Assembly: GCA_958296245.1 (NCBI GenBank)
Contig: OY282458.1
Span: 1,572,777-1,636,776 of the forward strand
Direction: 5' to 3'
Origin: an uncultured Dehalococcoidia bacterium
GTDB lineage: Bacteria > Chloroflexota > Dehalococcoidia > Lucifugimonadales > G958296245
DNA: 64,000 bases
This document shows positions 2 to 50,333 of this stretch, in pieces. Each line of letters begins with the position of its first letter. Position 1 is the first letter of the stretch. The translations under genes and the position numbers were made by a program. The notes under the pieces are model-generated. The model saw nothing but the letters and a program-made list of their open reading frames with translations, did no database searches and was not told the DNA's origin.

Positions 2-157
2 ATCCAACCTTCCCACGAGCTCCTCCCTACTCGACCCGATCACGGCCTCGCGCCGTATGGATTCCGCAGCACCGGCCCGTGCCCGTGCGGGCCCAGGCGA
101 GGCGGCGCCCAAAGTGTAGTTGGGACGAAGCAGAGCGTCAACGAATTCAGGAGCGGG
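2..157 (-). pseudogene. 5'-truncated open frame at the window edge
   Basis: An open minus-strand frame runs off the left end of the window and reads like protein (…EFVDALLRPNYTLGAAS…, then …EAVIGSSREELVGRL…). No ATG or GTG lies in frame near its right end, and it enters the R1 repeat copy at 159-320, so the 5' part of a gene appears to be missing. The second string weakly recalls the VIGTPEEV-ERL segment near the C-terminus of luciferase-like flavin monooxygenases; this is only a resemblance. It may instead be chance open frame in G+C-rich DNA. Confidence 0.25.
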
Positions 158-158
158 T

Positions 159-320
159 AACTGTTCAGACTTCGTAATGTCCTTTTCGACTGGCGCAGCC
201 CGATAAAGCAGACGTCTTTGATCTCACCGCCCGCACCTTGGTAACTGGGGGCATCGCCCAGTCCCCCTGCCAGAAGGGATAACCTCCCCTTAGGGTCTCA
301 CACAGAGTCTTGAACAGTTT
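159..320 (+). repeat. R1 MITE-like repeat, copy A
   Basis: The copy is about 160 bp and begins AACTGTTCAGACT and ends AGTCTTGAACAGTT, which are near-perfect terminal inverted repeats. The inside is non-coding and shares long stretches with copies near 2750, 7183, 17632, 25575 and 46590, including AAAGCAGACG, CTTTGATC and GTAACTGGGGGC. It lies just downstream of the sulfatase stop codon and may have truncated the neighbouring gene. Confidence 0.8.
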
Positions 321-334
321 CGGGAGCGGGGTCG

Positions 335-2736: not shown

Positions 2737-2748
2737 GATGCTCTGGGG

Positions 2749-2830
2749 AACTGTTCAGACTCTGTGAGACCCTGAGACCCGAGGGGGAAGGCCAGAGAGG
2801 TTCTACCCTCGGCAGGGGCTATTCTGCACG
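2749..2830 (-). repeat. R1 repeat, copy B (truncated)
   Basis: GAACTGTTCAGACT followed by CTGTGAGACCCT and the GGTTCT/CTCGGCAGGGG segment match one end of R1 in reverse orientation. The other half and the second terminal repeat are missing. The copy sits just upstream of the vapB -35 box. Confidence 0.65.
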
Positions 2831-7022: not shown

Positions 7023-7182
7023 GCCGTAGTCCGTTTAGGTTTGGTCGAGTTCTTGGCAGTGGTGAACGGCGCCCCCTACGGCGCCGTTGCAAAGTGCTGG
7101 GTTAGGATCCGCCCCGCGCCTGGCGGCATGGCCGGATTATAAGACGAAGCATAAACGCTTTCAACATCCCTGCCGCCGCGGT

Positions 7183-7515
7183 AACTGTTCAGACTGGCGT
7201 AGCTCCGATAAAGCAGACGCCTTTGATCCCCACCCGCCCACCCCTTAGTAACTGGGGGCACAGCCCCCAGACCCCCTGCCAGAGAGGAGAACCCTAGGTC
7301 CGGCGGACCTGGTGAGTGAGGGTAGGGGGAGGCTTCATGGCAGAGACCCCAAAAACGGAAGGTCAGTGAGGGGAAACTCGCGCTTCGGCCAAAAAATCGC
7401 TCTGCGGGCATCCTGAGCGATTTTTTTCTTGGAGCGTCCGTAAGTTCCAGACCCCCTGCTAGAGAGGAGAACCCTCTGGACTTTCCCCTTCGGGTCTCTC
7501 AGAGTCTGAACAGTT
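7183..7515 (+). repeat. R1 MITE-like repeat, copy C, split by an insertion
   Basis: The ends are AACTGTTCAGACT (7183-7195) and its exact complement AGTCTGAACAGTT (7503-7515), flanked by T and A. The R1 body is interrupted: a 28-bp segment (CCAGACCCCCTGC…GGAGAACCCT) occurs at 7268-7295 and again at 7448-7475 with one mismatch, and about 150 bp of unrelated DNA lies between them. Confidence 0.8.
7391..7428. terminator. Strong intrinsic terminator hairpin with T-tract
   Basis: AAAAAATCGCTC and GAGCGATTTTTTT form a perfect 12-bp stem with a 12-base loop, ending in seven T; it would work in both directions. It lies inside the insertion in R1 copy C, not behind any protein gene, and is the only T-rich terminator I see in the window. 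A smaller perfect hairpin (AGGTCC-GGC-GGACCT) lies at 7296-7310. Confidence 0.7.
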
Positions 7516-7528
7516 ATCCGCCGCGCCC

Positions 7529-14340: not shown

Positions 14341-14461
14341 CTTGATGATGAGGTGCGCAGCGAATCGCCCTTCCCCTGTCTGTCATTCTGAGGAGCGCAG
14401 CGACGAAGAATCTAAAGTCCTTGCACACGCGCCGGGCCGTCTTGGGAATGGACCGCCCCAA
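14341..14461 (+). repeat. R3 repeat, left inverted copy flanking the binding-protein gene
   Basis: This non-coding stretch contains CTGTCATTCTGAGG, AGTCCTTGCACACGCG and GGACCGC. The same sequence occurs inverted at 17098-17216, so the two form inverted repeats of about 115 bp around the binding lipoprotein gene. A related copy lies at 42557-42665. Confidence 0.75.
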
Positions 14462-14669: not shown

Positions 14670-16649
14670 ATGATGAAGAGTTACCGACTGCTGGTTGCGA
14701 TAGCTGCAATCCTCGCTCTTGGGGTGGCTGCGGCCTGTACCCGCGAGGTGATCAAGGAAGTCCCGGTGGAAGAGGTCGTCACCCAAGAGGTGATCAAAGA
14801 GGTGCCGGTGGAGGTGGTGGTCGAGAAGCAGGTGCTCAAGGAGGTGCCGGTGGAGGTGGTGGTCGAGAAGGAAGTGCTCAGGGAGGTGGAGGTGCCGGTA
14901 GAAAGGGTGGTCGAGAAGGAAGTCATCAGGGAAGTGGAAGTGCCGGTCGTTGTGGAGAAAGAGGTTGTCAGGGAGGTGGAGGTAGTCAAGGAAGTCGTGG
15001 TTCCCGAAGGGGAACAGGCCTCGGTCATCAACTGGCGCGCCTCCAGCGCCGTCACCAAGCTGTCGCCCTTCACGGCGGTCAGCGGGTACGTGGGCCTCAT
15101 AGGCACTCACGTCTTCTCAACCCTTATGAAGGGCAACCCGCATGCTCAGGTATATGCTCCCGATCTCGCGGCGCGCTGGGAAGTAGCTCCCGACGGAAGC
15201 TCGGCGACGTTCTATCTCCAGAGGAACGCCTTCTTCCACGACGGTGAGCCGGTAACGGCGGACGACATAGCCTTCTCCTTCACGTCGTACATGGACCCGC
15301 GCACCAAGAGCCGCGCCGTCCAGAGGCTCGCAATGGTCAAGGGAGCCGAGGCCTTCGCCGACGGCACCGCCGACTCCGTTGAGGGAATCAACGTAATCGA
15401 CGACTACACGATCCGGTTCGACATGGCCTTCCCGACGGGGCAGTTCCTGACCCAGGCCGCTGGGGTGTACGCGCTCCCGGAGCACATCCTGGGCAAGTTG
15501 GCCCCTGAGGATATCGACGACAGCGAGTTCTTCATCGGCTTGGGGTCTCAGAAGCCAATCGGCTCAGGCCCTTGGAAGTTCGTCCAGCACGAGCCCGACC
15601 AGTTCCACGAGCTGATCAGCAACGACGAATACTACCTCGGCAAGCCGAAGATCGACCGCGTATTCGTACACCTGATCACCAGCCCCGACACGGCCCAGAT
15701 CGCCATGCAGCGGGGTGAGATCGACGGCAGCAGGCGCGGCGGGTTCACGCCCGAAGTGAACCAGACGTTCTTGGCCGACCCTCGATTCATCATCGCGGCG
15801 GTAGGCGGGCGCGGGAACGGGCGCGGCTTCTCGTTCAACTTCCGCACCGACTGGATCGCCGACGCGCGCATCCACCAGGCGTTCATGTGGGCGTTGAACC
15901 GCAAGCAGATCGTAGACACGTTCAGCGCCGGCTTGGGGTACATCCACAACACGAACCTTTTCGTTCCCACGGGCGTCGAGACTCCCGAAATGATGGCCCG
16001 TTACACCCACACCGGCGACAGCGCGATGGCCCGCCAGCTTCTGACAGAGGCCGGCTGGGACTTCGACCGTGAGGTGACCGCCAAGGCCCCCGGATACGGC
16101 GCCGACCAGCGGCCCCAGATGGCCGCCAAGCAGCAGATGCTCGCGGAATCCGGGCTGAAGGTCACCTTTGAGACGATGGAGACCCCGGTCTGGGCAGCCG
16201 TCTACTACGAGAACTACAACTACGACCTCGTGTACGTCGGCGGCTGGGGCGGCGCTGTGGACCACCTGAACTACTACTTCCACAGCCAGAACACCAACGC
16301 AATGGGCTACGCCACCCCGGAACTAGACGCCCTGCTGGACGCGGTGCCCAGGGCCCTCAATGACGACGACTTGGTCAAGATCGGACTTCAGGTCAACGAG
16401 ATGTTCATCGAGGATCTGCCGATCGTGGTGATATCTACGCCTCTCAGCCTTACGACCTACGGCGCTCACGTCTGGATACCCGGATACGGCAGGCGGCCAC
16501 AGCCCGACCAGCTCAAGAACATCGTCTTCACGCCCCAGTTCGCGGGCGGCGGGGAGTGGGAGTACTTGATGCACCAGACCGACATCGTGGAGTTCGGGAC
16601 GACTCACCCGCTCAACGATGCCGGGCCGCTTCACGGACAGCTGCGGTAG
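14670..16649 (+). CDS. Peptide-type ABC transporter substrate-binding lipoprotein with V/E/K stalk
   Basis: The 659-residue lipoprotein has signal peptide M-M-K-S-Y-R-L-L…, lipobox V-A-A-A-C23, then about 90 residues (24-113) of imperfect repeats of V-P-V-E-V-V-V-E-K-E-V-(L/I/V)-(R/K)-E. A family 5 solute-binding domain follows (A-A-R-W-E-V, F-H-D-G-E-P-V-T-A-D-D). The repeats look like a stiff charged stalk that holds the binding domain away from the membrane. ATG 14670 is preceded by AGGGGG, and the frame open from 14601 adds no signal peptide. It probably delivers peptides or glycoside-like solutes to permeases at 25802-27746 and the ATPase at 13278. R3 inverted repeats flank it. Confidence 0.92.
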   Translation: MMKSYRLLVAIAAILALGVAAACTREVIKEVPVEEVVTQEVIKEVPVEVVVEKQVLKEVPVEVVVEKEVLREVEVPVERVVEKEVIREVEVPVVVEKEVVREVEVVKEVVVPEGEQASVINWRASSAVTKLSPFTAVSGYVGLIGTHVFSTLMKGNPHAQVYAPDLAARWEVAPDGSSATFYLQRNAFFHDGEPVTADDIAFSFTSYMDPRTKSRAVQRLAMVKGAEAFADGTADSVEGINVIDDYTIRFDMAFPTGQFLTQAAGVYALPEHILGKLAPEDIDDSEFFIGLGSQKPIGSGPWKFVQHEPDQFHELISNDEYYLGKPKIDRVFVHLITSPDTAQIAMQRGEIDGSRRGGFTPEVNQTFLADPRFIIAAVGGRGNGRGFSFNFRTDWIADARIHQAFMWALNRKQIVDTFSAGLGYIHNTNLFVPTGVETPEMMARYTHTGDSAMARQLLTEAGWDFDREVTAKAPGYGADQRPQMAAKQQMLAESGLKVTFETMETPVWAAVYYENYNYDLVYVGGWGGAVDHLNYYFHSQNTNAMGYATPELDALLDAVPRALNDDDLVKIGLQVNEMFIEDLPIVVISTPLSLTTYGAHVWIPGYGRRPQPDQLKNIVFTPQFAGGGEWEYLMHQTDIVEFGTTHPLNDAGPLHGQLR

Positions 16650-16707: not shown

Positions 16708-17310
16708 AACATGCTTCACGAGCAGGCCCGCGAGGCGGCCCCCTTGGCGCACTACCCCACTGGGCTACGCTAGTAGGCTGCGGGAAAGTGCTTCCGGCCT
16801 CCCTGCAAGCCCCTCCTCTCCTCCTGGGAGGAGTCTTGTATCTGAGGGAAACTCGCTCAGTCTCCACCGCGCAGGGACTCCGCCCTGCACTCCCCTATCC
16901 TGGGAGGTCCTCTAAGTTGTCATTCCGAACGCAGCCCCGGCGGAGTGAGGAATCTAAACGGGCTGCGGGAAAAATACGAAGCGTGCGGAAGGGCGGAACC
17001 CCTCGCCGGGGAGTTTGAGAGCCTGCCCGATGGGTGCAGGAAGGGGATAAAAGGAAGAGCGTAGGGGTTCTTACGCAGTCTGCCAGGGTCTGCTATTGGG
17101 GCGGTCCATCCCTAGACGGGCCCAGCGCGTGTGCAAGGACTTGATCCTTCATCGCGGCGCGCCTCAGAATGACAGACAGGGGAAGGGCGATCCTCTGGCG
17201 CGCCTCATCAAGCCTGCACAACTACGGGTGAAGACCTCTGCACTCCCCGTTTCCGCAGCCCGCTAAGCTAAGGTGTTGGGCCGGCCCGCTCACAATACGG
17301 GACTCACGTC
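16708..17310. other. Gene-free repeat cluster
   Basis: These 600 bases hold no convincing gene. They contain an R2-like piece at 16775-16920 (AGGCTGCGGGAAAGTGC…), a GTCATTCCGAACGCAG segment at 16918-16955, another R2-like piece beginning GGGCTGCGGGAAAAATACG at 16966 and ending TTTCCGCAGCCCGC near 17265, and the inverted R3 copy at 17098-17216 nested between. Repeats seem to have inserted into or next to each other. Confidence 0.65.
17098..17216 (-). repeat. R3 repeat, right inverted copy
   Basis: On the minus strand this reads CCTGTCTGTCATTCTGAGG … AAGTCCTTGCACACGCG … GGATGGACCGC, nearly the same as 14341-14461 in the opposite orientation. Confidence 0.75.
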
Positions 17311-17556: not shown

Positions 17557-17631
17557 TGCCGCTGCTCCATCTTGTTGTGAGACGAGGCTAGTACCGATAG
17601 AGCCGTTTGTCAATGCGAACCTAATTCGAGT

Positions 17632-17799
17632 AGCTGTTCAGATTTCGTGAGATCCCTTTCGACTGGCGTAGCCCCGGTAAAGCAGACGCCTTTGATCCCC
17701 GCCCGCCCCTTTGTAATTGAGGCACAGCCCTCAGACCCCCCTGCCCTAAGGGAGAATCTCCCGGACTCTCCTCCGGGTCTCACAGAGTCTGAACAGTTT
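17632..17799 (+). repeat. R1 MITE-like repeat, copy D
   Basis: This is a full-length copy of about 168 bp with ends AGCTGTTCAGATT and AGTCTGAACAGTT, and the internal AAAGCAGACGCCTTTGATC. It lies 50 bases upstream of the response regulator start, so it may carry or displace that gene's promoter. Confidence 0.8.
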
Positions 17800-17846
17800 C
17801 TGATTGGGATACTGCCAGCATCGGTTCGACCGGCGGCGACCACTGT

Positions 17847-18572: not shown

Positions 18573-19921
18573 ACCCGCGTCTGCTCCAATGGCGTGTCGC
18601 GCTCCCCTGCGCCGTCCTGTTCTTGGTAACGGTGTCGATCGGCTTCACGGCCGGAGACGTATTGGCCGAGAGGGTCGCCCTCATCGCACTAGCGGCCCTG
18701 ACCATCATCGCAGTCGTCACGAGTTTCCTCGTTACTCTTCACACGTCGCGCTCCGTCCGGTCAATATCGGAAGGGGCGCGGCGGCTCGCCGGCGGCGATC
18801 TGGAGCACCGGATCGCGGCGCCCTCGTCCGGCGAGACCCGCGACTTGGCCGATGCATTCAACCTGATGGCGGAGGCCATGGGAAACGCGGTCGGCAGCTT
18901 GACCGCGGAGCGGAACAAGCTGGCCGCCCTGCTGGACATCATGGCCGATGGTGTTCTGGTGATAGACGGAGATGGCAGGGTCTCGCTGCTCAACCGGGCC
19001 GCCGAGTCTATACTGGACGTGCGGGCTCCGGACGCGGTCGGCAGCGGGGTTGCCGAGATAGTGCGCGACCACGAGCTCCAGACCCTGGTACGGGATACCC
19101 TAGAGTCGGGCCGGCCCCACCAGTCCGACGTCGAACTAGTCGCCAAGCGTAGGTTCATTCGAGCCCTAGCCATTCCCGTCCAGGAAGACGGCCCCGACGG
19201 CGTTCTGCTCACGCTGCACGACCTGACAGGGATGCAGCGGCTAGACACGACCCGCCGGGAGTTCGTGAGCAACGTATCACACGAGCTCCGCGGTCCCCTG
19301 GCCTCTATCAAGGCCATGGTCGAGACCCTGACCGACGGGGCCTTGGAGGACAGAGCGGTCGCGGGGGAGTTCCTGGGGCGAATCGGGAGAGAGGTGGACC
19401 GGATGACGGTTATGGCCAACGAGCTATTGGAATTGTCTCTGCTGGAGAGCGGTCAAACCGAGCTCCACCTTGCCCCGCTTTCACTCAGGCCAATTGTGGA
19501 GGACGTGATGGCCCAAGCCGAAGGCTGGGCCGCCGCGACGGGGGTTTCGACGTCGGTTGACATTCCGGATACTCTGCCTCAGGTGGTTGGTGAGGAAGCC
19601 AAGGTGCGCCAGGTGCTTGTGAACCTCGTCGAAAACGCGATCAAGTTCATGCCGGAGGGCGGCCGGTTGTGCGTGCGTGCTGCGGTGGAAGGCAAGCTGG
19701 TAGAGGTCGGCGTCGAGGATGCAGGGGTGGGAATCCCGGAAGAGCACCTGCCCCACGTCTTCGAGCGATTTTACAAGGTGGACCGCTCCCGGCGAAAGGC
19801 GGGTACCGGGCTTGGCCTCGCGATCGTCAAGCACGTGGTGCAGCTGCACGGGGGCGGCGTGCGCGCCGAGAGCCGCGAGGGGGCAGGAAGCACCTTCTAT
19901 TTCACCCTACCTCGAGCCTAG
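18569..19921 (+). CDS. Sensor histidine kinase (PhoR-like)
   Basis: The 450-residue membrane kinase has two N-terminal membrane helices (about 10-28 and 35-57) with almost no external loop, a HAMP linker (55-108), a PAS domain (about 117-220), HisKA with phospho-acceptor H238 in S-N-V-S-H-E-L-R-G-P-L, and an ATPase domain with N-box N-L-V-E-N-A-I-K-F, D-A-G-V-G-I and G-T-G-L-G-L-A-I-V. The lack of a sensory outer domain fits PhoR-type kinases, which sense phosphate through the Pst transporter and PhoU, both encoded just downstream. It is co-translated with the response regulator. Confidence 0.92.
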   Translation: MNPRLLQWRVALPCAVLFLVTVSIGFTAGDVLAERVALIALAALTIIAVVTSFLVTLHTSRSVRSISEGARRLAGGDLEHRIAAPSSGETRDLADAFNLMAEAMGNAVGSLTAERNKLAALLDIMADGVLVIDGDGRVSLLNRAAESILDVRAPDAVGSGVAEIVRDHELQTLVRDTLESGRPHQSDVELVAKRRFIRALAIPVQEDGPDGVLLTLHDLTGMQRLDTTRREFVSNVSHELRGPLASIKAMVETLTDGALEDRAVAGEFLGRIGREVDRMTVMANELLELSLLESGQTELHLAPLSLRPIVEDVMAQAEGWAAATGVSTSVDIPDTLPQVVGEEAKVRQVLVNLVENAIKFMPEGGRLCVRAAVEGKLVEVGVEDAGVGIPEEHLPHVFERFYKVDRSRRKAGTGLGLAIVKHVVQLHGGGVRAESREGAGSTFYFTLPRA

Positions 19922-20190
19922 AGCAGGTTGGGAATGCAGGGAGAGGCGCCCCCTCATGTTGTCCGTGGACTGCGTTCGGAATGACAGTCTTGGGGAGGCC
20001 CTCACGATTCGACTCATGAATACTGAACGGCTACAGCCGATCCCCGGGGCTTGTGCCGCGCTTCACCTCCACGTTAAGCTTGTCTTCATCTGCCCCCGCG
20101 GCCTCTAGGGACCCGCCGAATCTTGTCTTACTTCACGCCATCCAACCATGCCCACAGGCTAGGCCCGGTCCCCGGGGAAGTACGGCTTTA

Positions 20191-25550: not shown

Positions 25551-25574
25551 CTGGCCGGGCAGCCTCGGTTGAGG

Positions 25575-25712
25575 GGGGTTCTCCCCTCAGTGGCGGGGGG
25601 TCTCCGGGGGCTGTGCCCCCAGTTACCAAGGGAGCGGGCGGGTGTGGATCAAAGGCGTCTGCTTTATCGGGGCTGCGCAGTCGAAAAGGACCCATGAAGT
25701 CTGAACGGTTAC
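25575..25712 (-). repeat. R1 repeat, copy E (one end lost)
   Basis: Read on the minus strand it begins AACCGTTCAGACT and contains TGGGTCCTTTTCGACTG, AAAGCAGACGCCTTTGATC and GTAACTGGGGGCACAGCC; the second terminal repeat is absent. It fills most of the gap between phoU and the peptide permease. Confidence 0.7.
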
Positions 25713-28493: not shown

Positions 28494-30923
28494 TCATTCT
28501 GCCGCATCAAAAGGGAACTCCGCCTCCCAGAGGTGTTTGTAACCGCCTTCCACGGGCACGAACTGGCCGGTCTTGATGGAGGCGATGTCATAGGCGGGAA
28601 GCTCGCGCACGGCTACGGGCCGCTCGGTTAGCTGAAGTTCGTAGTCCTCAAAGCGGAAGTCGAGATTGTCGAAGCCGTACTGCGCGCGGTGGTCGGGGAG
28701 GTCGTTCACGTCGGCGGGGTACAGGTGGAGGAAGAATCGCACGGCGGCGGCGCTGCTGGGCTGCACAGGTAGGGAGGACACGGTCATCGCCTTGACCCGA
28801 TTGCCACGGCTGTCGGTGTAGTGAACATAGGCCCGCAGCCGCTGGCCGACATCCGCGGCGGTGGGCGTGTACATGCCTGCGTGACCAAAGGGGGGGCCGG
28901 AGACATTGGTCCAGCCTTCGGCATCGCTGCCGCGCTCCCACTGCCAGGCGCTCCGGTCTGTGAAGCCCGCGCGGTGCACGGCAGGGGACAACACGGCATA
29001 GAACGGCTTACCCACTATCGGAATGTCCTGTTGGTACGATAATCGGGCGGCTCTATCTTCGCCTTGATTCCCCACGTAAATCAGTTTGTTCCCACTGCGA
29101 TACACGTCAAAATAGCCATCGCGACGGACTACGAGTTCAGATTCCTGAATCATCTCGTCTATCTGCGTGGAATAGCCGCTCTGGCGGTAGAGAAAGAACC
29201 GCCGGTTGTCCGGCGTCAGCAGAGCGGGGACGTCGATTCGTTGGCGCGAGACGAAGAAATCGTATGCGAAGATATCAGGCCACGCAGGCCACGAGCGTCC
29301 AATCACTCTTCCTGCAAGATAATAATTCATCACCCTACCTACCCCGACAAACAGACTGGAGGATGCGGTGACAAAAACACTCTGTCCCGGCTCTACTATT
29401 GTCCTGATATGCTCAAAATCCGAAATGGCCGCCTGAAGTTCAGACGCCTGCCGGTCGTGCCCAACGCGCCCCATCTGGAAGCTGGAAAGGACGAATATCA
29501 GCAGCGCGGCCGCGGAGAGACCGACCAGAAGACGGCCGGCGAGTAACCGGCGCATGCACAACAGCCCTATCGAGAAGAGGACCAACGGAACGCCGATATA
29601 GAAGACGCTCTCATAATCATAGAGGGCGGTATTATGGCGCATCGGCAATGCCCAGCAGAAGCCGGCTATCAGCAAGGTTGCCAGCAGCATCTTCTGGCGG
29701 GCAAACAGCAGCCCAATGACGGCGAGGCCGACCGCCAACGCTCCGACAATCACGCTGAGGTAGTTATCGTACCTCCATCTATCTTGGTCAAACGGATTGA
29801 TTATGAACGGCAGCGTAGCTCCGGCGATGCGGTAGAACTGATTCGGCAGGAAGTTTCCCCATTCGAGAGTCTCGGCGAAGTACTCATTGAACCCTTCACC
29901 CGCTCCAAGGCGATCCGTCATGGACTTCACCGTAGGCAACTCAGTCAGCGGGACCTCACCGTCAAACGCCCGATATTCGTTGCCCAGGTTGAAGGCCAAC
30001 ACCGCTATGCCGAAAAGCAGGGTGACGACGCCCAGCGTCATGTATCGGCTGAACAGCAGCGCCGAGGCGCAGCGCTTGATTCGACCTGTCAAGCTCGGAG
30101 GGGTAGATAGCCGGCGCGCCCGGTTCAGCTCGATCGCCATACCCAGGACAATAAAGGGCAGCAGCAGCGCATAGACGTGCCAGCCCAGCAGCAGAGCCGC
30201 ACACGCCTTGATGAGCAACTGCCGGAAGCGGCCCTCTTGGACAAAGAGGACCATGCCGTGGAAGGTCAGCAGCACGCCGAAAAGGGAAAGGCCATTTTCG
30301 GTAGCTATCATGTCGTTGTAATAGAGCAAGTAGTACGACGAGAACGCCAGCAGAGCGGTAGTCAAGGCAATCCAGCGGTTGTCGGCAAGCCGGTAGAGGG
30401 ATAGGTAGGCCAGCGCGGCGCTGCCGGCAAAAAAGAGCAGAAACACCATGCGGGCGGCATAGATTTTCGCCGCTAGGCCATCCCCGAACGGCAGTATGGC
30501 CAGTTTGATCAGCGCATAGCCGCCAATCGGAAAACGATTGTATGGGATGTAAGAGGGGGCGCCGTCTTCATCCAGGGTTTGACGACGGAACAACAGGAAG
30601 TTGTGTTCGGGAGATAGATTCGCGGCTACCGACAAGTGGTTCGCCGATACGGAATTGTGGTATCCCGGCCGGTATAAAGAGTCTCGCCGGTCGTTGCCGA
30701 ACAGGAACACCGTTGACAGCGCCAGCAGCAGCAGCAACAGCGGCAACGACGCCCACGCGCTCATGTTCTGGTAGCGCACGGCAAGGGCGCGCCACAGATT
30801 ATTCAGCGCGAAGCGACGTAGGCCGTTCCCGCTACTGTTCAAGGCGTATCTCTCCCCCCCAGATGTTATCGAAACCGCCTTCCACGGGCACGTACTGGCC
30901 GGTCTTGATGGAGGCGATGTCAT
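28494..30923 (-). CDS. Large polytopic membrane protein, tandem paralogue 1 (with Ig-like domain)
   Basis: The 809-residue protein has about ten membrane helices in residues 55-470 (first L-P-L-L-L-L-L-L-A-L-S-T-V-F-L-F), loops with S-P-E-H-N-F and R-F-P-I-G-G-Y-A-L-I-K, then a soluble outer region. The layout recalls GT-C glycosyltransferases, but no clear catalytic acid motif is seen, so function is unknown. The outer part holds an Ig-like domain (W-Q-W-E-R-G-S-D…Y-T-P-T-A-A-D-V-G-Q-R-L) and a family-specific end (F-F-L-H-L-Y-P-A-D-V…F-V-P-V-E-G-G). The first 27 codons reuse the tail of the upstream paralogue in another frame. A coupled TTG at 30842 is an alternative start. Confidence 0.8.
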   Translation of the reverse strand: MTSPPSRPASTCPWKAVSITSGGERYALNSSGNGLRRFALNNLWRALAVRYQNMSAWASLPLLLLLLALSTVFLFGNDRRDSLYRPGYHNSVSANHLSVAANLSPEHNFLLFRRQTLDEDGAPSYIPYNRFPIGGYALIKLAILPFGDGLAAKIYAARMVFLLFFAGSAALAYLSLYRLADNRWIALTTALLAFSSYYLLYYNDMIATENGLSLFGVLLTFHGMVLFVQEGRFRQLLIKACAALLLGWHVYALLLPFIVLGMAIELNRARRLSTPPSLTGRIKRCASALLFSRYMTLGVVTLLFGIAVLAFNLGNEYRAFDGEVPLTELPTVKSMTDRLGAGEGFNEYFAETLEWGNFLPNQFYRIAGATLPFIINPFDQDRWRYDNYLSVIVGALAVGLAVIGLLFARQKMLLATLLIAGFCWALPMRHNTALYDYESVFYIGVPLVLFSIGLLCMRRLLAGRLLVGLSAAALLIFVLSSFQMGRVGHDRQASELQAAISDFEHIRTIVEPGQSVFVTASSSLFVGVGRVMNYYLAGRVIGRSWPAWPDIFAYDFFVSRQRIDVPALLTPDNRRFFLYRQSGYSTQIDEMIQESELVVRRDGYFDVYRSGNKLIYVGNQGEDRAARLSYQQDIPIVGKPFYAVLSPAVHRAGFTDRSAWQWERGSDAEGWTNVSGPPFGHAGMYTPTAADVGQRLRAYVHYTDSRGNRVKAMTVSSLPVQPSSAAAVRFFLHLYPADVNDLPDHRAQYGFDNLDFRFEDYELQLTERPVAVRELPAYDIASIKTGQFVPVEGGYKHLWEAEFPFDAAE

Positions 30924-33246
30924 AGGAGGGAAGCTCGCGTACGGCTATGGGCCGCTCGGTTAGGGGAAGATAGTAGTCGTCGAAGCGGAAGTCGAGGTTG
31001 TCGAACCCCTGCCGCTTTCTGTGGTCGGGAAGGTCGTTCACGTCAACGGGGATGAGGTGCAGGAAGATGACCGCCTCGGCGGCGCTGCTGGGCTGCACAG
31101 GTGGGGAGGGCGTGGTCATCGCCTTGATCCGATTGCCGCGGCTGTCGGTGTAGTGGACGTAGGCACGCAGTCGATAGCCCTCATCTGCAGCGGTGGGCGT
31201 GTACTCGTAGGTGGGTCCTGGACGGTCGGAGCCGGAGACGTTGGTCCAGCCTGCGGCATCGCTGCCGCGCTCCCACTGCCAGGCGCTCCGGTCCGTGAAG
31301 CCCGCGCGATGCACGGCTGGGGACAGCGCGGTAGAGAACGGCTTACCCACTATCGGAATGGCCTGTGCGATGAATCGGGCTGCTCTATCCTCGCCTTGGT
31401 TCCCGACGTAAATCAGCCTGTTCCCGCTGCGATACACGTCAAAATAGTCATCGCCACGGATTACAAGTTCGGATTGTCTGATCATCTCGTCTATCTGCGC
31501 TGAGTAGTCGCCCCTTCGGTAGAGAAAAATCTGCCTGTTTTCAGGCGTCAGCAGAGCGGGGACGTCGACTCGCTGGCGCGAGATAAAGAAATCGAAGCTG
31601 TCACGCCACACGGACCAAGGGCGTCCAATCATCCTTCCTGCAAGATAATAATCCACCGCCCGACCTCCCCCGGCAAACAGACGGTGGGGTATGAGGTTAA
31701 GAACGCTCCGGCCCGGCTCTGCTATCGTCCTGATATGCTCAAAATCGGCAACCACCGCTTCTTGATATTCGGACGCCTGCAGGTCGTGACCAACGCGCCC
31801 CATCTGGAAGCTGGAAAGAACGAAGACCAGCAGCGCGGCAGCGGAGAGACCAACAATAAGACGGCCGCCGAATGACCGGTGCAGGCGCGACAACCCCACT
31901 GAGAAGAGGACCAACGGAACGCCGATATAGAAGACGCTCTCAAAATCATGGAAGGCGGTATTATGGCGCATCAGCAATGCCCAGCAGAAGCCGGCTATCA
32001 GCAGGGTTGCCAGCAGCATTCTCCGGCGGGCAAACAGCAGCCCGATGACGGCGAGGCCGACCGCCAACGCTCCGACAATCACGCTGTTGTAGTTATCGTA
32101 CCTCCATCTATCTTGGTCAAACGGATTGATTATGAACGGCAGCGTCGCTCCGGTGATGCGGTAGAACTGATTCGGCAGGAAATTTCCCCATTCCAAAGTC
32201 TCGGCGTAGCGCTCACTGAACCCTTCATCCGCTCCAACGCGATACGTTATGGACTTCACCGTAGGCAGTTCAGTCAGCGGGACCTCACCGTCAAACGCCC
32301 GGTATTCGTTGCCCAGGTTGAAGGCCAGCACCGCCATGCCGAAAAGCAGGGTGACGACGCCCAGCGTCAGATAGCGGCTGAACAGCAGCGCGGATACGCA
32401 GCTCTTGATTTGACCTGCCAAACTCGGAAGGGCAGATAGCCGCGCCCTGTTCAGCTCGATCACAATACCCAGGACGATAAAGGGCAGCAGCAGCGCATAG
32501 ACGTGCCAGCCCAACAGCAGCGCGACGCACGCCTTGACGAGCAACTGCCGGAAGCGGGCCTCTTGGACAAAGAGGACCATGCCGTGGAAGGTCAGCAGCA
32601 CGCCGAAAAGGGAGAGGCCACTTTCGGTAGCTGTCATGTCGTTGTAGTACAGCAAATAGTACGACGAGAACGCCAGCAGAGCGGCAGCCAAGGCAATCCA
32701 TCGGTTGTCTGTCAGCCGGCGGAGGGACAGGTAGGCCAGCGCCGCGCTGCCGGCGAAAAAGAGCAGAAACACCATGCGGGCGGCATAGAGCTGCGCCGAA
32801 AAGTCGTTCCCGAAAGGCAGGGTAACCAGTTTGATCAGCGCATAGCCGCCAATCGGAAAGCGGCTGTAAGGCTCGTATACGGGAGCGCCGTCTTCATCCG
32901 GGGTTTGATGATAGAACAACAGGAAGTTGTGTTCGGGAGATAAATTCGCGGCTACCGCCAGGTGATTCGCCGATACCCCACTGTGGCCCCCGGGCCGGTA
33001 GAAGCGCCCCCGGTCGTTGCCGAACAGGAACACCGTTGAAAGCGCCAACAGGAGCAGCAATAGCGGCAACGACGCCCCCGCGCTCATGTTCTGATAGCGT
33101 GCGGCCAGGGCGCGCCACAGATTATTCAGTGCGAAGCGACGTAGGCCGTTCCCGCTACTGTTCAAGGCGTATCTCTTCCCCCCAGATGTTATTGAAACCG
33201 CCTTCCACGGGCACGTACTGGCCGGTCCTGATGGAGGCGATGTCAT
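30832..33246 (-). CDS. Large polytopic membrane protein, tandem paralogue 2 (with Ig-like domain)
   Basis: The 804-residue protein is collinear with paralogue 1, with long near-identical DNA tracts, the same helices and the same Ig-like domain (S-A-W-Q-W-E-R-G-S-D-A-A-G-W-T-N). It ends N-I-W-G-G-E-I-R-L-E-Q with TAG at 30832. That stop overlaps a possible TTG start of paralogue 1 (TTGAACAGTAG), so the genes look translationally coupled. Its own first 27 codons again lie out of frame in the tail of paralogue 3. The protein is expected in the cell membrane with its C-terminal region outside. Function is unknown; a role in surface glycan transfer is only a guess from the fold pattern. Confidence 0.8.
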   Translation of the reverse strand: MTSPPSGPASTCPWKAVSITSGGKRYALNSSGNGLRRFALNNLWRALAARYQNMSAGASLPLLLLLLALSTVFLFGNDRGRFYRPGGHSGVSANHLAVAANLSPEHNFLLFYHQTPDEDGAPVYEPYSRFPIGGYALIKLVTLPFGNDFSAQLYAARMVFLLFFAGSAALAYLSLRRLTDNRWIALAAALLAFSSYYLLYYNDMTATESGLSLFGVLLTFHGMVLFVQEARFRQLLVKACVALLLGWHVYALLLPFIVLGIVIELNRARLSALPSLAGQIKSCVSALLFSRYLTLGVVTLLFGMAVLAFNLGNEYRAFDGEVPLTELPTVKSITYRVGADEGFSERYAETLEWGNFLPNQFYRITGATLPFIINPFDQDRWRYDNYNSVIVGALAVGLAVIGLLFARRRMLLATLLIAGFCWALLMRHNTAFHDFESVFYIGVPLVLFSVGLSRLHRSFGGRLIVGLSAAALLVFVLSSFQMGRVGHDLQASEYQEAVVADFEHIRTIAEPGRSVLNLIPHRLFAGGGRAVDYYLAGRMIGRPWSVWRDSFDFFISRQRVDVPALLTPENRQIFLYRRGDYSAQIDEMIRQSELVIRGDDYFDVYRSGNRLIYVGNQGEDRAARFIAQAIPIVGKPFSTALSPAVHRAGFTDRSAWQWERGSDAAGWTNVSGSDRPGPTYEYTPTAADEGYRLRAYVHYTDSRGNRIKAMTTPSPPVQPSSAAEAVIFLHLIPVDVNDLPDHRKRQGFDNLDFRFDDYYLPLTERPIAVRELPSYDIASIKTGQYVPVEGGFDNIWGGEIRLEQ

Positions 33247-35353
33247 AGGGGGGAAGCTCGCGCACGGCTATGGGCCGTTCGGTTAGCGGAAGCTTGTAGT
33301 CGTCGAAGTGGAAGTCGAGATTGTCGAAGCCGTACTGCTTGCGGTGGTCGGGAAGGTCTTCCACGTCAACAGGGGTGAGGTGCAGGAAGAAGGTGAATTG
33401 GGTGGCTCTATCCTCGCTTTGGTTCCCGACGTAAATCAGCTTGTTCCCGCTGCGATACACGTCAAAATAGTCATCGCCACGGATTACAAGTTCGGATTGT
33501 CTGATCATCTCGTCTATCAGCCCTGAATAGTCATAGTCGCCCTGGCGGTAGAGAAAAATCTGCCTGTTTTCAGGCGTCAGCAGAGCGGGGACGTCGACTC
33601 GCTGGCGAGAGATAAGAAAATCGTATGCGAAGCTGTCACGCGGGGTTCCAATCACTCTTCCAGCAAGATAATAAGGCAGCGCACGCGCCCTGGCAAACTG
33701 ATAAGAGTCAAGGAGTCCCCATACGGGTTGGGGGACAGAAACGCTCTGTCCCGGCTCTGCTATTGTCCTGATATGCTCAAAATCGGCAACGACCGCTTCT
33801 TGGAATTCAGACGCCTGCCGGTCGTGACCAACGCGCCCCATCTGGAAGCTGGAAAGAACGAAGACCAGCAGCGCGGCAGCTGAGAGACCAACAATAAGAT
33901 GGCCGCCGAATAACCCCCGCAGACGCAACAGCCCTATTGAGAAGAGGACCAACGGAACGCCGATATAGAAGACGCTCTCAAAATCATGGAAGGCGGTATT
34001 ATTGCGCATCAGCAATGCCCAGCAGAAGCCGGCTATCAGCAGGGTTGCCAGCAGCATTCTCCGGCGGGCAAACAGCAGCCCAATGACGGCGAGGCCGGAC
34101 GCCAACGCTCCGACAATCACGCCGCGGTAGTCATCGTACCCCCATATATCGTGGTCAAACGGATTGATTATGAACGGCAGCGTCGCTCCGGTGATGCGGT
34201 AGAACTGATTCGGCAGGAAGTTTCCCCATTCCAGAGTCTCAGCGTAGCGCTCACTGAACCCTTCATCCGCTCCAACGCGATACGTTATGGACTTCACCGT
34301 AGGCAGTTCAGTCAGCGGGACCTCACCGTCAAACGCCCGATATTCGGTGCCCAGGTTGAAGGCCAACACCGCCATGCCGAAAAGCAGGGTGACGACGCCC
34401 AGCGTCAGATAGCGGCTGAACAGCAGCGCGGCTGCGCAGCTCTTGATTTGACCTGCCAAACTCGGAGGGACAGATAGCCGCGCCCTGTTCAGCTCGATCA
34501 CAATACCCAGGACGATAAAGGGCAGCAGCAGCGCATAGACGTGCCAACCCAACAGCAGCGCAATGCACGCCTTGACGAGCAACTGCCTGAAGCGGCCCTC
34601 CTGGACAAAAAGGACCATGCCGTGGAAGGTCAGCAGCACGCCGAAAAGGGAGAGACCATTTTCGGTAGCTGTCATGTCGTTGTAGTACAGCAAATAGTAC
34701 GACGAGAACGCCAGCAGAGCGGCAGCCAAGGCAATCCATCGATTGTCTGTCAGCCGGCGGAGGGACAGGTAGGCCAGCGCCGCGCTGCCGGCGAAAAAGA
34801 GCAGAAACATCATGCGGACGGCATAGAGCTGCGCCGAAAAGTCGTTCCCAAAAGGCAGGGTAACCAGTTTGATGAGCGCATAGCCGCCAATCGGAAAGCG
34901 GCTGTATGGGACGTAATCAGGGGCGCCTTCTTCATCCAGGGTTTGATGATAGAACAACAGGAAGTTGTGTTCGGGGGATAAATTCGCGGCCACCGACAAG
35001 TGATTCGCCGATACCCCACTGTGGAGACCGAGCCGGTAGAAGCGCCCCCGGTCGTTGCCGAACAGGAACACCGTTGAAAGCGCCAGCAGGAGCAGCAACA
35101 GCGGCAACGACCGGAGGAAGGTTGAATTGCCCCCCCCCGTACTTATGTTCTGATAGCGCGCGGCCAAGGCGCGCCACAGATTATTCAGCGCTGAGCGCTG
35201 GGCGTACCTCTTCCTCCCAGATCTTCTGCTGGATCTTCTTCTGCGTCTGGCGGGGTTCCGGTTACTACTCAAGGCGTATCTCTTCCTCCCAGATGCTATT
35301 AAAACCGCCGTCCACGGGCACGAACCGGCCAGTCCTGATGCGGGTAGTATCAT
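33155..35353 (-). CDS. Large polytopic membrane protein, tandem paralogue 3 (lacking the Ig-like domain)
   Basis: The 732-residue protein is closest to paralogue 2 through the membrane region. After V-G-N-Q-S-E-D-R-A it passes directly to F-F-L-H-L-T-P-V-D-V, so the roughly 100-residue Ig-like domain of the other two copies is cleanly absent (junction near 33393). It has an extra N-terminal Arg/Ser-rich stretch (R-R-R-R-R-S-S-R-R-S-G-R-K-R-Y-A) made by a short duplication, and an insert S-T-G-G-G-N-S-T-F before the first helix. As first gene of the array in transcription order it may be the founder or a derivative. ATG 35353 lies in the remnant of a fourth copy; TTG 35272 is an alternative. 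Confidence 0.78.
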   Translation of the reverse strand: MILPASGLAGSCPWTAVLIASGRKRYALSSNRNPARRRRRSSRRSGRKRYAQRSALNNLWRALAARYQNISTGGGNSTFLRSLPLLLLLLALSTVFLFGNDRGRFYRLGLHSGVSANHLSVAANLSPEHNFLLFYHQTLDEEGAPDYVPYSRFPIGGYALIKLVTLPFGNDFSAQLYAVRMMFLLFFAGSAALAYLSLRRLTDNRWIALAAALLAFSSYYLLYYNDMTATENGLSLFGVLLTFHGMVLFVQEGRFRQLLVKACIALLLGWHVYALLLPFIVLGIVIELNRARLSVPPSLAGQIKSCAAALLFSRYLTLGVVTLLFGMAVLAFNLGTEYRAFDGEVPLTELPTVKSITYRVGADEGFSERYAETLEWGNFLPNQFYRITGATLPFIINPFDHDIWGYDDYRGVIVGALASGLAVIGLLFARRRMLLATLLIAGFCWALLMRNNTAFHDFESVFYIGVPLVLFSIGLLRLRGLFGGHLIVGLSAAALLVFVLSSFQMGRVGHDRQASEFQEAVVADFEHIRTIAEPGQSVSVPQPVWGLLDSYQFARARALPYYLAGRVIGTPRDSFAYDFLISRQRVDVPALLTPENRQIFLYRQGDYDYSGLIDEMIRQSELVIRGDDYFDVYRSGNKLIYVGNQSEDRATQFTFFLHLTPVDVEDLPDHRKQYGFDNLDFHFDDYKLPLTERPIAVRELPPYDIASIRTGQYVPVEGGFNNIWGEEIRLEQ

Positions 35354-42439: not shown

Positions 42440-42670
42440 ACTCATCCCTACCCGTTCAGTCTCCATGAGTTGAACCGTGAGCTTACCAAGTTGTGATTCC
42501 GAACACGGCGCCAGTTGCCCTAAATTGTCATTCCGAACACAGCGCCAGCCTCCCCAACTGTCATTCCGAACGCAGCGCAGCGGAGTGAGGAACCTGAAAG
42601 GCCCTGCCATCGGGGCGGCCCATCCGCTCCCCGACGGCCCGGCGCGTGTGCAGGGCTTCAAAAGCAGTCG
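42440..42670 (+). repeat. R3-type repeat cluster
   Basis: Three tandem-like pieces start GTGATTCCGAACACGGCGCC (42494), GTCATTCCGAACACAGCGCC (42527) and GTCATTCCGAACGCAGCGC (42560). The last continues AGTGAGGAACCTGAAAGGC and GGCGCGTGTGCAGGGCTTC, as in the R3 copies at 14341 and 17098. This is the only content of the 323-base gap before the ABC genes. Confidence 0.65.
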
Positions 42671-46542: not shown

Positions 46543-46588
46543 CTCTAACACCTCCTGAATGTGACCGTTGATCATCCATTCCACTGTG

Positions 46589-46696
46589 TAACTGTTCAGA
46601 CTTCGTGAGGTCCTTTTTCGGCTGGCGTAGCCCCGATGAAGCAGACTGTCTTTGATCCCCACCCGCCTGCCCCTTGGGGTCCCACAAAGTCTGAAC
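46589..46696 (+). repeat. R1 MITE-like repeat, copy F (internally deleted)
   Basis: Both ends are kept (TAACTGTTCAGACT; AGTCTGAACTAG), but only about 108 bp remain because the centre is missing. It includes TTCGTGAGGTCCTTTTTCGGCTGGCGTAGCCCCGAT-like sequence shared with copies A, C and D. Its right end coincides with the stop codon of the second VWA gene. Confidence 0.8.
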
Positions 46697-48264
46697 TAGC
46701 GCCTCCGAGAGGTCTGCGCTTGACCGTCGACCAAGTGGGCCATCTCCTCCTGTACGAGCCTTACCACGAGGTCGTCCAGCTGCTGGATCGTGTACTGGCT
46801 CACGTGGTGGGGCGTCGCGCCGCCGGCGCCGTAGACGATGAAGATGAACCGGCCCATCGTATGCTGGGATATCTGCCTGAAGACGTATTCGCCCTGGTCG
46901 TCCAACCCGCTGGAAGCTATGGTGAATATCTTGATGCCCCGGCGGTGGGCCTCGATCATCTCCTCGGCGTAGTCGTTGTCCTGCGAGTAGTCCAGGTGAG
47001 GAGGGGCATCGGCGATCATGAAGACCAGGCGAATGGCGTCGCCCAGCCGCCAGCTAGGCCCGTGTACGGCCTCGTGGAGCGCCTCGTTGACCGACTCCGG
47101 GTAGTCACCCCCGCCGTCGGCGTGTACTCCCTGAATCGTATTCAGGAACTGTTGCACGTCGCGGTCGAAGTCGAAGGTCAGGGTAACGTAGTCGTCGCCC
47201 CTATCCCTGTAAGTTACCATCCCGAAGCGCAGGTCGGGCCGCGACGGCAGGTTGTGTATCCGCTCCGATATGGACAGGAGCGTATCCTTGACCTGGTCTA
47301 TCTCGTCGGCCATGCTGCCCGTGGAATCCAGCAGGAACAGGACGTCGAGCGGGACTCTGCGGCTGTTGGACCTGTCCACGTCGAGCTTCACGACCCACTC
47401 GTTCCCCTGGCGGCGAGTGGTGTCCAAGTACTGGCTCACGCCGTCTTTCTCGACGTGGAGGCGGAAGGCCGAAACGTTGCTGGCTTGAGGGAATGCCCGT
47501 GGAAAGAACAACGATTGTCCGTTGGCGTAGGTGCGCCCTTCGAAGATCGTCGTCTGGTCCGCGGAAACTCGCACGATCGCGTTGGGAACGGGCCGGCCGC
47601 GGGAGTCCCTCACCGAGATGACGTACCGCTCGGACACGTCGACGTCGTGAACGCGCGGGCCGGCATAGCTGCTGCGATACCGCAGGTATTCTCCCCAGCG
47701 TTCGTTGTCGTCTACCTCGCCTGCCGAGAGCGTTACCGGATTGGGCCTGGAACGCCTCCTCTCGGGACTCGGTGAGCCGGACGCGGGCGCCGCCGAGTCC
47801 GATTCGGCGGACTCCGCCTCCACCATGGCCTCTATCTCTCTGACCACGTCCTTCTCCACCACTACCGGCACCTCCTTGACCACCTCCTTCTCCACCACTA
47901 CCGTCTCCCCCGGCACACTGACCTCTCTGACAACCTCCACCTCCACCTCTCTGACAACTTCCTTCTCCACCACCACCTCGACCGGCACCTCCACCTCTCT
48001 GACAACTTCCTTCTCCACCACCACCTCGACCGGCACCTCCACCTCTCTGACAACTTCCTTCTCCACCACCACCTCGACCGGCACCTCTACCTCTCTGACA
48101 ACTTCCTTCTCCACCACCACCGGTACCTCTTTGACCACTGTCTCAGTGACGACCTCAGTCACAGGCACCTCTTTGACCGTTTCCCTTGAACAGGCCACCA
48201 GCGCTATAGCCAACACAGCCATCACTCCGGCGGCGGCGTATATCCCCAAACGGCGTATCATCAT
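46696..48264 (-). CDS. VWA-domain lipoprotein with V/E/K stalk repeats
   Basis: The 522-residue lipoprotein has lipobox A-L-V-A-C25, then about 110 residues of repeats around V-E-V-P-V-E-V-V-V-E-K-E-V-V-R-E; three units are exact 48-bp DNA repeats. A Ser/Pro/Arg-rich linker, a possible small beta domain and a von Willebrand A domain (F-L-L-D-S-T-G-S-M-A-D-E) follow, with a late aspartate site M-I-A-D-A-P-P-H. GGAGGGAGTA precedes tandem ATGs. The stop is inside the end of R1 copy F. It is divergent from the HTH-TM-TPR gene across 164 bases, which suggests shared control. It is expected to stand on the cell surface on its stalk. Confidence 0.88.
   Translation of the reverse strand: MMIRRLGIYAAAGVMAVLAIALVACSRETVKEVPVTEVVTETVVKEVPVVVEKEVVREVEVPVEVVVEKEVVREVEVPVEVVVEKEVVREVEVPVEVVVEKEVVREVEVEVVREVSVPGETVVVEKEVVKEVPVVVEKDVVREIEAMVEAESAESDSAAPASGSPSPERRRSRPNPVTLSAGEVDDNERWGEYLRYRSSYAGPRVHDVDVSERYVISVRDSRGRPVPNAIVRVSADQTTIFEGRTYANGQSLFFPRAFPQASNVSAFRLHVEKDGVSQYLDTTRRQGNEWVVKLDVDRSNSRRVPLDVLFLLDSTGSMADEIDQVKDTLLSISERIHNLPSRPDLRFGMVTYRDRGDDYVTLTFDFDRDVQQFLNTIQGVHADGGGDYPESVNEALHEAVHGPSWRLGDAIRLVFMIADAPPHLDYSQDNDYAEEMIEAHRRGIKIFTIASSGLDDQGEYVFRQISQHTMGRFIFIVYGAGGATPHHVSQYTIQQLDDLVVRLVQEEMAHLVDGQAQTSRRR
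47940..48110 (-). repeat. 48-bp in-frame tandem repeats in the stalk
   Basis: About three and a half 48-bp units, each encoding V-E-V-P-V-E-V-V-V-E-K-E-V-V-R-E, follow each other almost without change. Such a run can gain or lose units by slippage, altering stalk length without changing frame. Confidence 0.85.
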
Positions 48265-48428: not shown

Positions 48429-50333
48429 ATGGCCACTTTCGCCGAGCTGTTGACCAAATACATGACCCGGACCGGCATCGGCGACGCCGAGTTGGCGCGC
48501 CGTGTCGGGGTGAGCCGGCTCACCCTGGTACGCTGGAAGGAGGGGGTAACCAGCCGGCCCCGCCACCGGGAGGACGTGATCCGCTGCGCGGAGCTGCTCC
48601 GCCTAGAGCCGGAAGAGCGGGACGGGTTGCTTCTGGCCGCGGGCTTTTCCCCGGACAGCGCCCCAGACCCCATCGAGCCGCTCACGCCGGAGCACGCCGA
48701 GGAGACACAGCCGGCCTCCGGGTCAGCGGCTGCTCCGGCGCCGCGTAAGCTGAAGAGGCTCATGATAGCGGGCGCGGTTGGCGCGGTCATGCTGGCCGTA
48801 CTCGCGGGCGGTCTTGCGGCGGTCATGCTGAGCCGCCCCGCCCTCCCGGAGGCCGCAGACGGGGAGTCGCTCATCGTCATGGCGCCGTTCGTCAACTACA
48901 CAGGGGGGCAGCAGGGATTCAACGTTCGAGGCCGGCTGAAGCAAGAGATAGACCGAGAGCTCGAGGCGGCGGGGCTTGAACAGGTGAGAACGGCCGAGTG
49001 GCCGGAGGAGATCGAGGGGGAGGATGCGGCGGTGACGGCGGGGAGACAGTCCGGCGCCACGATCGTTATCTGGGGGGAGTACGACAGCGGGAGGGTCATC
49101 GCCGCGTTCACGACCCCCCACAGCCGTTCAGAAATGCGCGAACAGCAGAGCGTGTACCTAGCGTCTTCGCCTTCCGATCTGCCCGCAACGGTCAACGTAA
49201 CCCTGACCGAAGAGGTCCGCCACGTAGCGTTGCTGACACTCGGTCAGCTCTACTTGGAGCAGAGGGAGTACGACCATGCCAAGACGGTCTTGATCCAAGC
49301 CATGAGACGGCCGCCCTCGGACCCCGAGGCGCTGGCCGGCTTGAGGTTCCGATTGGGACGCGCGTATCAGGGAGGAGAGAAGGTGGACCTCGACGAGGCG
49401 ATAACGCTGTTCACACAGGTACTCGCCGTTCAGCCCCGCTCCGTAGATACCCACAACAGCCGGGCGCTGGCCTATCTGGACCGCGGCACGTCCGGCGACG
49501 TGGAACGAGCCATCGCGGACCTGACCAGGGCGGCGGCTATCGATCCCAAGAGTGCCGCCACGTACGTCAACCTAGCGGTCGCCTATAGCGAACGCCGTCA
49601 GGCCGGGGACTTGGACCGGGCCATATCGGAGCTGACTCGGGCTATACAGATGCGGGCCGATTACGCCGGCGCATACGTCAACCGGGCGGTGATCTACGTG
49701 GAAAGGGGCGGGGCCGAGGACCTCGAGCGGGCTTTCGACGACGTCGAGCACGCCCTGGGGCTGGACCCCGATCTATCGACCGCGTTCCTCAGCCGAGGGA
49801 ATGCCCACCTGGCCCGAGGACTGGCCGGCGACTACGACCGCGCTTTGGAAGACTTTGGCCGCGCGATCCAGTTGGCGCCCAACTCCCCCATGGCGTACTT
49901 CAACCGGGGCCTGGCTTACTCTTCGCTTAGGGACTTGAACAGATCGTTGGCCGACCTGCGAAGAGCCCAAAGGTTGCGTCCGAGCGACCTCAAGTTCAAC
50001 AATACCCTCTGCTGGCAGTTGGGGGTAACGGGAGAGCCCGAGGCGGCGCTTGCCTACTGCGATCTGGCCGTCAAGGCCGACCCTTCGGGGGTTTCAAAAG
50101 ACAGCCGAGGCCTCGTGTACGCAGTGATGGGCCGAGCCGCCGAAGCGATCGACGACTTCGACTCGTTCCTTGCATGGGTGGACAGCTCGCCAAAGGAGAC
50201 TTGCCGAAGCTATTACCGACCCAGCCGCATGGCGTGGATAGAAGCACTGCGGGCAGGCGAAATCCCATTCGACGCGGAAACGCTTCACGGGTTGCGCGTC
50301 AGACCGAGAATGTCCAGAGATGATCCTTGCTGA
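48429..50333 (+). CDS. HTH-TM-TolB/FlgO-like-TPR membrane protein
   Basis: The 634-residue protein has an N-terminal lambda-type HTH (A-E-L-A-R-R-V-G-V-S-R-L-T-L-V-R-W; residues 1-75), a Pro/Ala linker and one membrane helix (about 113-135). An outer alpha/beta domain follows (I-V-M-A-P-F-V-N-Y-T-G-G…G-A-T-I-V-I-W-G-E), resembling TolB-N/FlgO-like domains, then about seven TPR repeats (270-575). The layout is that of a one-component sensor: cytoplasmic DNA binding, outside protein-binding repeats. It is divergent from the stalked VWA lipoprotein, a plausible target and partner. I infer it senses envelope state; no ligand is known. Confidence 0.85.
   Translation: MATFAELLTKYMTRTGIGDAELARRVGVSRLTLVRWKEGVTSRPRHREDVIRCAELLRLEPEERDGLLLAAGFSPDSAPDPIEPLTPEHAEETQPASGSAAAPAPRKLKRLMIAGAVGAVMLAVLAGGLAAVMLSRPALPEAADGESLIVMAPFVNYTGGQQGFNVRGRLKQEIDRELEAAGLEQVRTAEWPEEIEGEDAAVTAGRQSGATIVIWGEYDSGRVIAAFTTPHSRSEMREQQSVYLASSPSDLPATVNVTLTEEVRHVALLTLGQLYLEQREYDHAKTVLIQAMRRPPSDPEALAGLRFRLGRAYQGGEKVDLDEAITLFTQVLAVQPRSVDTHNSRALAYLDRGTSGDVERAIADLTRAAAIDPKSAATYVNLAVAYSERRQAGDLDRAISELTRAIQMRADYAGAYVNRAVIYVERGGAEDLERAFDDVEHALGLDPDLSTAFLSRGNAHLARGLAGDYDRALEDFGRAIQLAPNSPMAYFNRGLAYSSLRDLNRSLADLRRAQRLRPSDLKFNNTLCWQLGVTGEPEAALAYCDLAVKADPSGVSKDSRGLVYAVMGRAAEAIDDFDSFLAWVDSSPKETCRSYYRPSRMAWIEALRAGEIPFDAETLHGLRVRPRMSRDDPC

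Follow-up and report, generated by a model that had tools for sequence, protein, structure and literature searches.

The analysed stretch of 64,000 nucleotides (the window) spans positions 1572777-1636776 of a single-contig chromosome of 2,685,284 bp (G000) and carries six copies of a short dispersed element, all of which are present where the first-pass annotation placed them. Copy A (157-321, plus strand) has both termini, flanking 8-bp sequences AGGAGCGG and GGGAGCGG that match at 7/8 positions, and a single CRISPR-like repeat unit at 259-284 on the plus strand (G000:1573035-1573060). Copy B (2747-2830, minus strand) is a one-ended fragment that retains the right terminus and a portion of the repeat. 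Copy C (7181-7517, plus strand) possesses both termini within a perfect 8-bp duplication, CCGCCGCG, at 7173-7180 and 7518-7525. Copy D (17630-17800, plus strand) is bounded by both termini and a decayed duplication (5/8) and includes one degenerate repeat unit at 17732-17759 on the plus strand, with approximate borders. Copy E (25572-25712, minus strand) retains the GTAACCGTTCAGACT terminus alone, and copy F (46588-46697, plus strand) has lost the CRISPR-like repeat through an internal deletion. Exact termini AACTGTTCAGACT/AGTCTGAACAGTT occur at window positions 159, 2749, 7183, 7503 (minus), 17786 (minus) and 46590, and near-exact ones at 17632 and 25698 (minus). With up to 3 mismatches the window holds 15 terminus matches against 7.5 expected, and none of 100 shuffled sequences reached 15.

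Beyond the window, the AACTGTTCAGACT terminus has 209 matches in the chromosome at no more than 1 mismatch, compared with 0 for the reversed control, and a blastn search with copy D matched 60 places; the family is real and far exceeds six copies. The element is about 175 bp long (mode 170-179 bp), has no coding capacity and carries terminal inverted repeats (TIRs) of 15-22 bp with the termini GTAACTGTTCAGACT. The ends first described are real termini, but alignment of the flanks sets the true borders 2 bp further out, with a start at GTAACTG and an end at CAGTTTC or CAGTTAC. In 30 full copies the 8-bp flanks match at a mean of 4.23/8 positions against a background of 2.03. Among 56 TIR-paired elements, counted within the 461 kb fetched around matches (17% of the chromosome), the mean is 4.63/8, compared with 2.20 between unrelated flanks; 17 of these 56 match at 7/8 or better, where about 0.05 would be expected (background fraction 0.001), and 11 are perfect, while target duplications of lengths other than 8 bp stay near background in the same 56 elements. 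Our comparison thus revealed inverted termini, an 8-bp target-site duplication and many short copies devoid of a transposase gene, as in miniature inverted-repeat transposable elements (MITEs). The earlier suggestion of a TA-target MITE with no further function was drawn from the T and A beside the ends of copy C; these two letters belong to the IS66-type terminus GTAA, and together with the 8-bp duplications this refutes the TA hint and leaves that version a negligible probability. Whole-element tandem arrays of the MITE were also observed at G000:C1 80865-81393, 234500-235063, 1160479-1161186, 2000987-2001632 and 2221303-2221951; their unit borders differ, with or without a 16-18 bp flank, and some units are devoid of one terminus.

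GTAA termini combined with 8-bp duplications point to the IS66 family, whose ISBst12 group includes ISDge4, an element bounded by GTAACTGCTCAGCA ends with a repeat of 8 bp (PMC12898284). Transposases of IS66 with matching ends were found in the relatives G396, G394 and G370. The transposase gene of G396 (DDE_Tnp_IS66, PF03050; locus L136) lies 80 bp inside a GTAACTGTTCAGAGTTCGTGAG end, and the DDE_Tnp_IS66 gene of G394 (L135) stops about 60 bp before AGTCTGAACAGTTAC. Complete IS66 elements are present in Dehalococcoidia (L138 and L139), where they end in GTAAgAGTTCAGAtT or GTAACTacTCAGAgT and are flanked by perfect duplications of 8 bp, and a same-order genome contains a 1.43-kb IS66 relative with ends GTAACAGTTCAGACT/GTACCTGTTCAGACT, whose target duplication is no longer present (L137). 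Relatives additionally harbor elements with the same ends and perfect duplications around other interiors (111-330 bp). Judged by its termini, which begin with GTAA and have nearly the same sequence as those of the ISBst12 group (e.g., ISDge4; PMC12898284), by the equal length of its target duplication and by the DDE_Tnp_IS66 genes beside such ends in relatives, the MITE is an IS66-type, ISBst12-like, non-autonomous element, and its transposon part very probably adds a new member to an already known kind of element. Unlike ISBst12-group elements, it measures only about 175 bp and has a transposase neither inside it nor elsewhere in the genome: the window indeed holds none, as had been stated, and no IS66 transposase was found in the whole chromosome. 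Since the transposase with matching ends is absent from its own genome, the assignment is limited to an IS66-related MITE and does not extend to an IS66 element. The suggested search for a transposase gene bordered by the same ends thus gave IS66 genes next to identical or near-identical termini in relatives, and none in the host itself; mobilization in trans, with the enzyme supplied from elsewhere, is supported by the TIRs, the 8-bp duplications, the missing coding capacity and the IS66 transposases of relatives. Without an IS66 transposase in its own genome the family looks stranded, in agreement with the 80-95% identity of copies to the consensus and with their decayed duplications. The segments between distant TIRs at L070 and L095, tried as candidate transposase carriers, contain ordinary genes instead.

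The interior of the MITE contains a 28-bp palindrome, CCCAGACCCCCTGCCAGAGGGGAGAACC, that resembles a type I-E CRISPR repeat. This region had been noticed as a palindrome, and what escaped notice is that it is a CRISPR-like repeat which at about one quarter of the loci is expanded with mostly unique spacers of approximately 33 bp. Some copies possess a second CAGACCCCCTGCCAGAGGGGAGAACC unit with a unique insert between the two. Genome-wide, this unit has 101 matches at up to 3 mismatches against 0 for the control, many of them 59-62 bp apart. Parsing of the 461 kb around all listed matches yielded 140 loci, of which 102 have one unit, 23 two, 5 three, 7 four, 2 five and 1 six, i.e., at least two units at 38 of 140. 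The intervals between the 26-bp units measure 33-37 bp in 56 of 67 cases (mode 34-35), and the repeat period has its mode at 61 (25 cases), followed by 60 (11) and 62 (5), with 41 of 60 intervals falling at 60-62. Inserts of 30-40 bp (n = 59) form 42 sequence clusters, 39 of which are not the host hairpin discussed below, and the TIR-paired elements fall into length classes near 170, 230, 290-300 and 350-370 bp, which correspond to steps of about 61 bp. Spacers are found in copies with perfect target duplications as well, at 49661 (one), 416260 (two) and 1888378 (one). One locus pair with a 44-bp insert departs from this pattern and counts against the preferred explanation, as does the 154-bp insert of copy C.

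Copy C alone in the window has a duplicated repeat, the remaining copies having one unit or none. Its units lie on the plus strand at 7268-7293 and 7448-7473 on either side of the 154-bp insert (7294-7447, plus strand), which includes a terminator-like hairpin and shares 91% identity over 137 bp with an intergenic segment at G000:1528678-1528815; the first-pass annotation placed this copy correctly and overlooked the duplicated 28-bp repeat around the insert. Both units have the private variant GAGAGGAG, from which it follows that the duplication arose in place. The atypical insert may be due to an integration of unusual length or to a different type of insertion.

An ordinary IS66-derived MITE, in which replication slippage or recombination duplicated the 28-bp units and produced the inserts with no relation to CRISPR, finds some support in the whole-element tandem arrays (period 133-194 bp, at 81k, 234k, 1160k, 2001k and 2221k) and in a few arrays that contain one insert repeatedly (1296, 247146 and 294348). 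Slippage, however, copies existing sequence and does not generate unique inserts of one length, and neither the 42 insert clusters, the sharp 33-36 bp length and the 61-bp period, nor a 19-mer common to a MITE spacer and the resident type I-E array (see below) fits this explanation, which we regard as quite unlikely. Several of the supposed spacers are a host palindromic repeat, which counts against the preferred explanation. This palindrome, GGAGCGCAGGCGTCTCGCCTGCTCC, was observed as an insert at 19206, 247146, 294348, 549348, 1027949, 1029487, 1550990 and 2221465, and its recurrence may be due either to repeated capture of the hairpin or to transposition of a loaded copy.

The sequences flanking the repeats are constant, GGTAACTGGGGGCACAGCCCC on the left and TCTCTGGACTTCC on the right, and the edit distance between repeats is 3.18 within a locus compared with 4.47 between loci. 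Private variants are common to the units of one locus, e.g., both units at 2621497 read CTGACC..GACGGG. Constant flanks combined with locus-private repeats are the outcome that repeat-duplicating spacer integration would leave in the sequence. These observations also bear on the proposal that the MITE spread already loaded, as a mobilized piece of a former CRISPR array with inserts that are remnants of a larger ancestral array. Identical spacers at 247k, 294k and 2221k could reflect such a transposed loaded copy, but most loci have a single repeat with constant flanks on both sides, the spacers are locus-specific, and the locus-private variants common to the units of a locus imply that most duplications followed insertion of the MITE, which renders this origin very improbable.

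The preferred reading, spacer integration into the MITE, finds a candidate machinery in the same genome. Three CRISPR-Cas loci are present (G000:C1 577-583 kb, 996-1010 kb and 2080-2093 kb), namely a Cas9 locus, a locus with a Cas4-Cas1 fusion and a type I-E locus; the fusion locus is I-G-like, has Cas1g as best match and includes more than 110 spacers within its fetched part. The type I-E operon is complete (cas3, cse1, cse2, cas7, cas5, cas6e, cas1e and cas2e), and its array at 2089299-2093203 comprises 64 repeats of 28 bp, GGTTCCCCCGCACACGCGGGGATAGACC, with a 61-bp period and spacers of exactly 33 bp in 62 of 63 cases. The geometry of the MITE arrays equals that of the I-E array, unlike those of the two other CRISPR loci. 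The reverse complemented MITE repeat, GGTTCTCCCCTCTGGCAGGGGGTCTGGG, shows moderate similarity to the I-E repeat, a level equalled by 0.7% of random genomic 28-mers, which counts against the link. Furthermore, the reverse strand of the third spacer at 1954188 contains GTGGATGATACCAGATTCT, a 19-nt word that recurs identically in the I-E spacer at 2090791, offset by one base in the 33-nt frame. None of 4000 sets of random chromosomal 34-mers shares a word of 19 (the longest reached 17), and among 197 genomes of the order the 19-mer occurs, at up to 1 mismatch, only at the two array positions. We read the two spacers as probable derivatives of related foreign DNA. For the few spacers compared with IMG/VR or phage records, no convincing protospacer match emerged, which counts against the preferred explanation; the 12 matches of one 16-mer were at chance level.

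Direct repeats, unique spacers of constant length, and Cas1/Cas2 with the I-E effector thus occur together in one genome. Because the MITE repeat differs from the repeat of the resident array, the loci are classed as CRISPR-like mini-arrays and not as a canonical I-E array. They resemble a type I-E array in the 28-bp palindromic repeat, the unique spacers of about 33 bp, the 60-61 bp period and the GGTTC end, and differ in that the units are scattered among transposon copies at dozens of sites, with one to five spacers per site and a repeat diverged from the canonical one. An Rfam search of the window and four array loci returned nothing relevant and is uninformative, since the canonical I-E array was also unmatched. 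At the border of one fetched stretch (L191:1-31; G000:1744700), a sequence cut off by the border weakly matches the tmRNA 3' end; a MITE array with two repeats lies about 0.8 kb away.

Across the class Dehalococcoidia, to which the analysed genome belongs, the interior module was found without MITE termini in about 50 of 393 genomes, with the consensus GGGGGACACCCCCAGACCCC(C)TGCCAGAGGGG..CCTCTGGACTCCCC; it is therefore either older than the MITE or was shared with it. Among these 393 genomes, pairs of repeats at periodic spacing with the exact core were restricted to G000 and G378. The same-order G378 and OY282365.1 share a locus (L089 = L105), and their MITE copies also have mostly 33-36 bp spacers. 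Cas1e was not found in OY282365.1/G378, which counts against the preferred explanation; spacers in its absence could be explained if the I-E genes had been lost or are missing. The MITE terminus (up to 2 mismatches) has no match in 346 kb (L308-L333) of G433, a congener of OY282365.1, although the latter has dozens of copies, which points to a recent amplification in a single lineage. An empty-site comparison of these two genomes, at 70-76% DNA identity in coding parts, gave no clean junction.

Taken together, these data would fit a sequence of events in which an IS66 transposase, now gone from the genome, spread the non-autonomous MITE in trans. The interior of the MITE contains a dispersed hairpin module with the 28-bp palindrome, which the host CRISPR adaptation complex may have taken for a CRISPR repeat, integrating spacers of approximately 33 bp at many sites and duplicating the repeat each time, whereby about one quarter of the loci would have become mini-CRISPR arrays dispersed over the genome. 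We consider this course, trans-mobilization of an IS66-type MITE and subsequent Cas1-Cas2 integration, likely on the strength of features read from the DNA, namely the transposition hallmarks, the IS66-type ends, the repeat-spacer architecture, the in-place duplication, the I-E operon and the shared spacer word. That the inserts are CRISPR spacers is very likely, and that the type I-E pair Cas1e-Cas2e placed them is probable; we infer a foreign origin for most of them. An unlikely extension is that the mini-arrays might be transcribed and processed by the resident I-E machinery, so that the transposon would spread working CRISPR landing pads, the extra arrays possibly being selected as helping the host or shielding the element; if true, this would represent mobile, self-dispersing immune memory.

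Integration of spacers at non-array genome sites has been described with overexpressed Cas1-Cas2 (Nivala et al. 2018, Nat. Microbiol. 3:310, as cited in PMC11788318); set against that work as PMC11788318 presents it, the MITE case is natural and involves a mobile repeat at dozens of sites. Ectopic CRISPR repeats such as CreTA (PMC9458426) are likewise degenerate repeats outside arrays, but those of the present genome are located in a MITE and have variable spacers. The GC-rich intergenic hairpin module, distributed through Dehalococcoidia, is also reminiscent of bacterial REP-like palindromic repeats, from which it differs by its enclosure in IS66 ends and its expansion with spacers. MITEs inserted into CRISPRs, the converse case, are known (PMC4852346), and a literature search of partial coverage found no report of MITE copies with CRISPR repeats and acquired spacers, which is weak evidence of novelty. 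A non-autonomous transposon that provides repeats and a CRISPR adaptation machinery that provides spacers would connect systems not normally linked in this way. It would constitute natural, large-scale spacer integration outside canonical arrays, with more than 100 repeat sites per genome as replicates, which makes the target needs of Cas1-Cas2 and the birth of new CRISPR arrays testable. To genome annotators, such loci would appear as dozens of 'orphan' two-repeat CRISPRs.

The window contains other repeats as well. Dispersed repeats unrelated to the MITE were observed at 14358-14461 and 17096-17197 and at 16905-16941, 19967-19986 and 42479-42582, and a TGTCATTCCGAACGCAGC family is among them. 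Low-complexity 48-bp repeats occupy 14715-14978 and 47810-48169 on opposite strands, apparently inside open reading frames. Three tandem paralogous open reading frames of about 730-810 aa, with DNA identities of up to about 90%, lie on the minus strand at 28494-35353.
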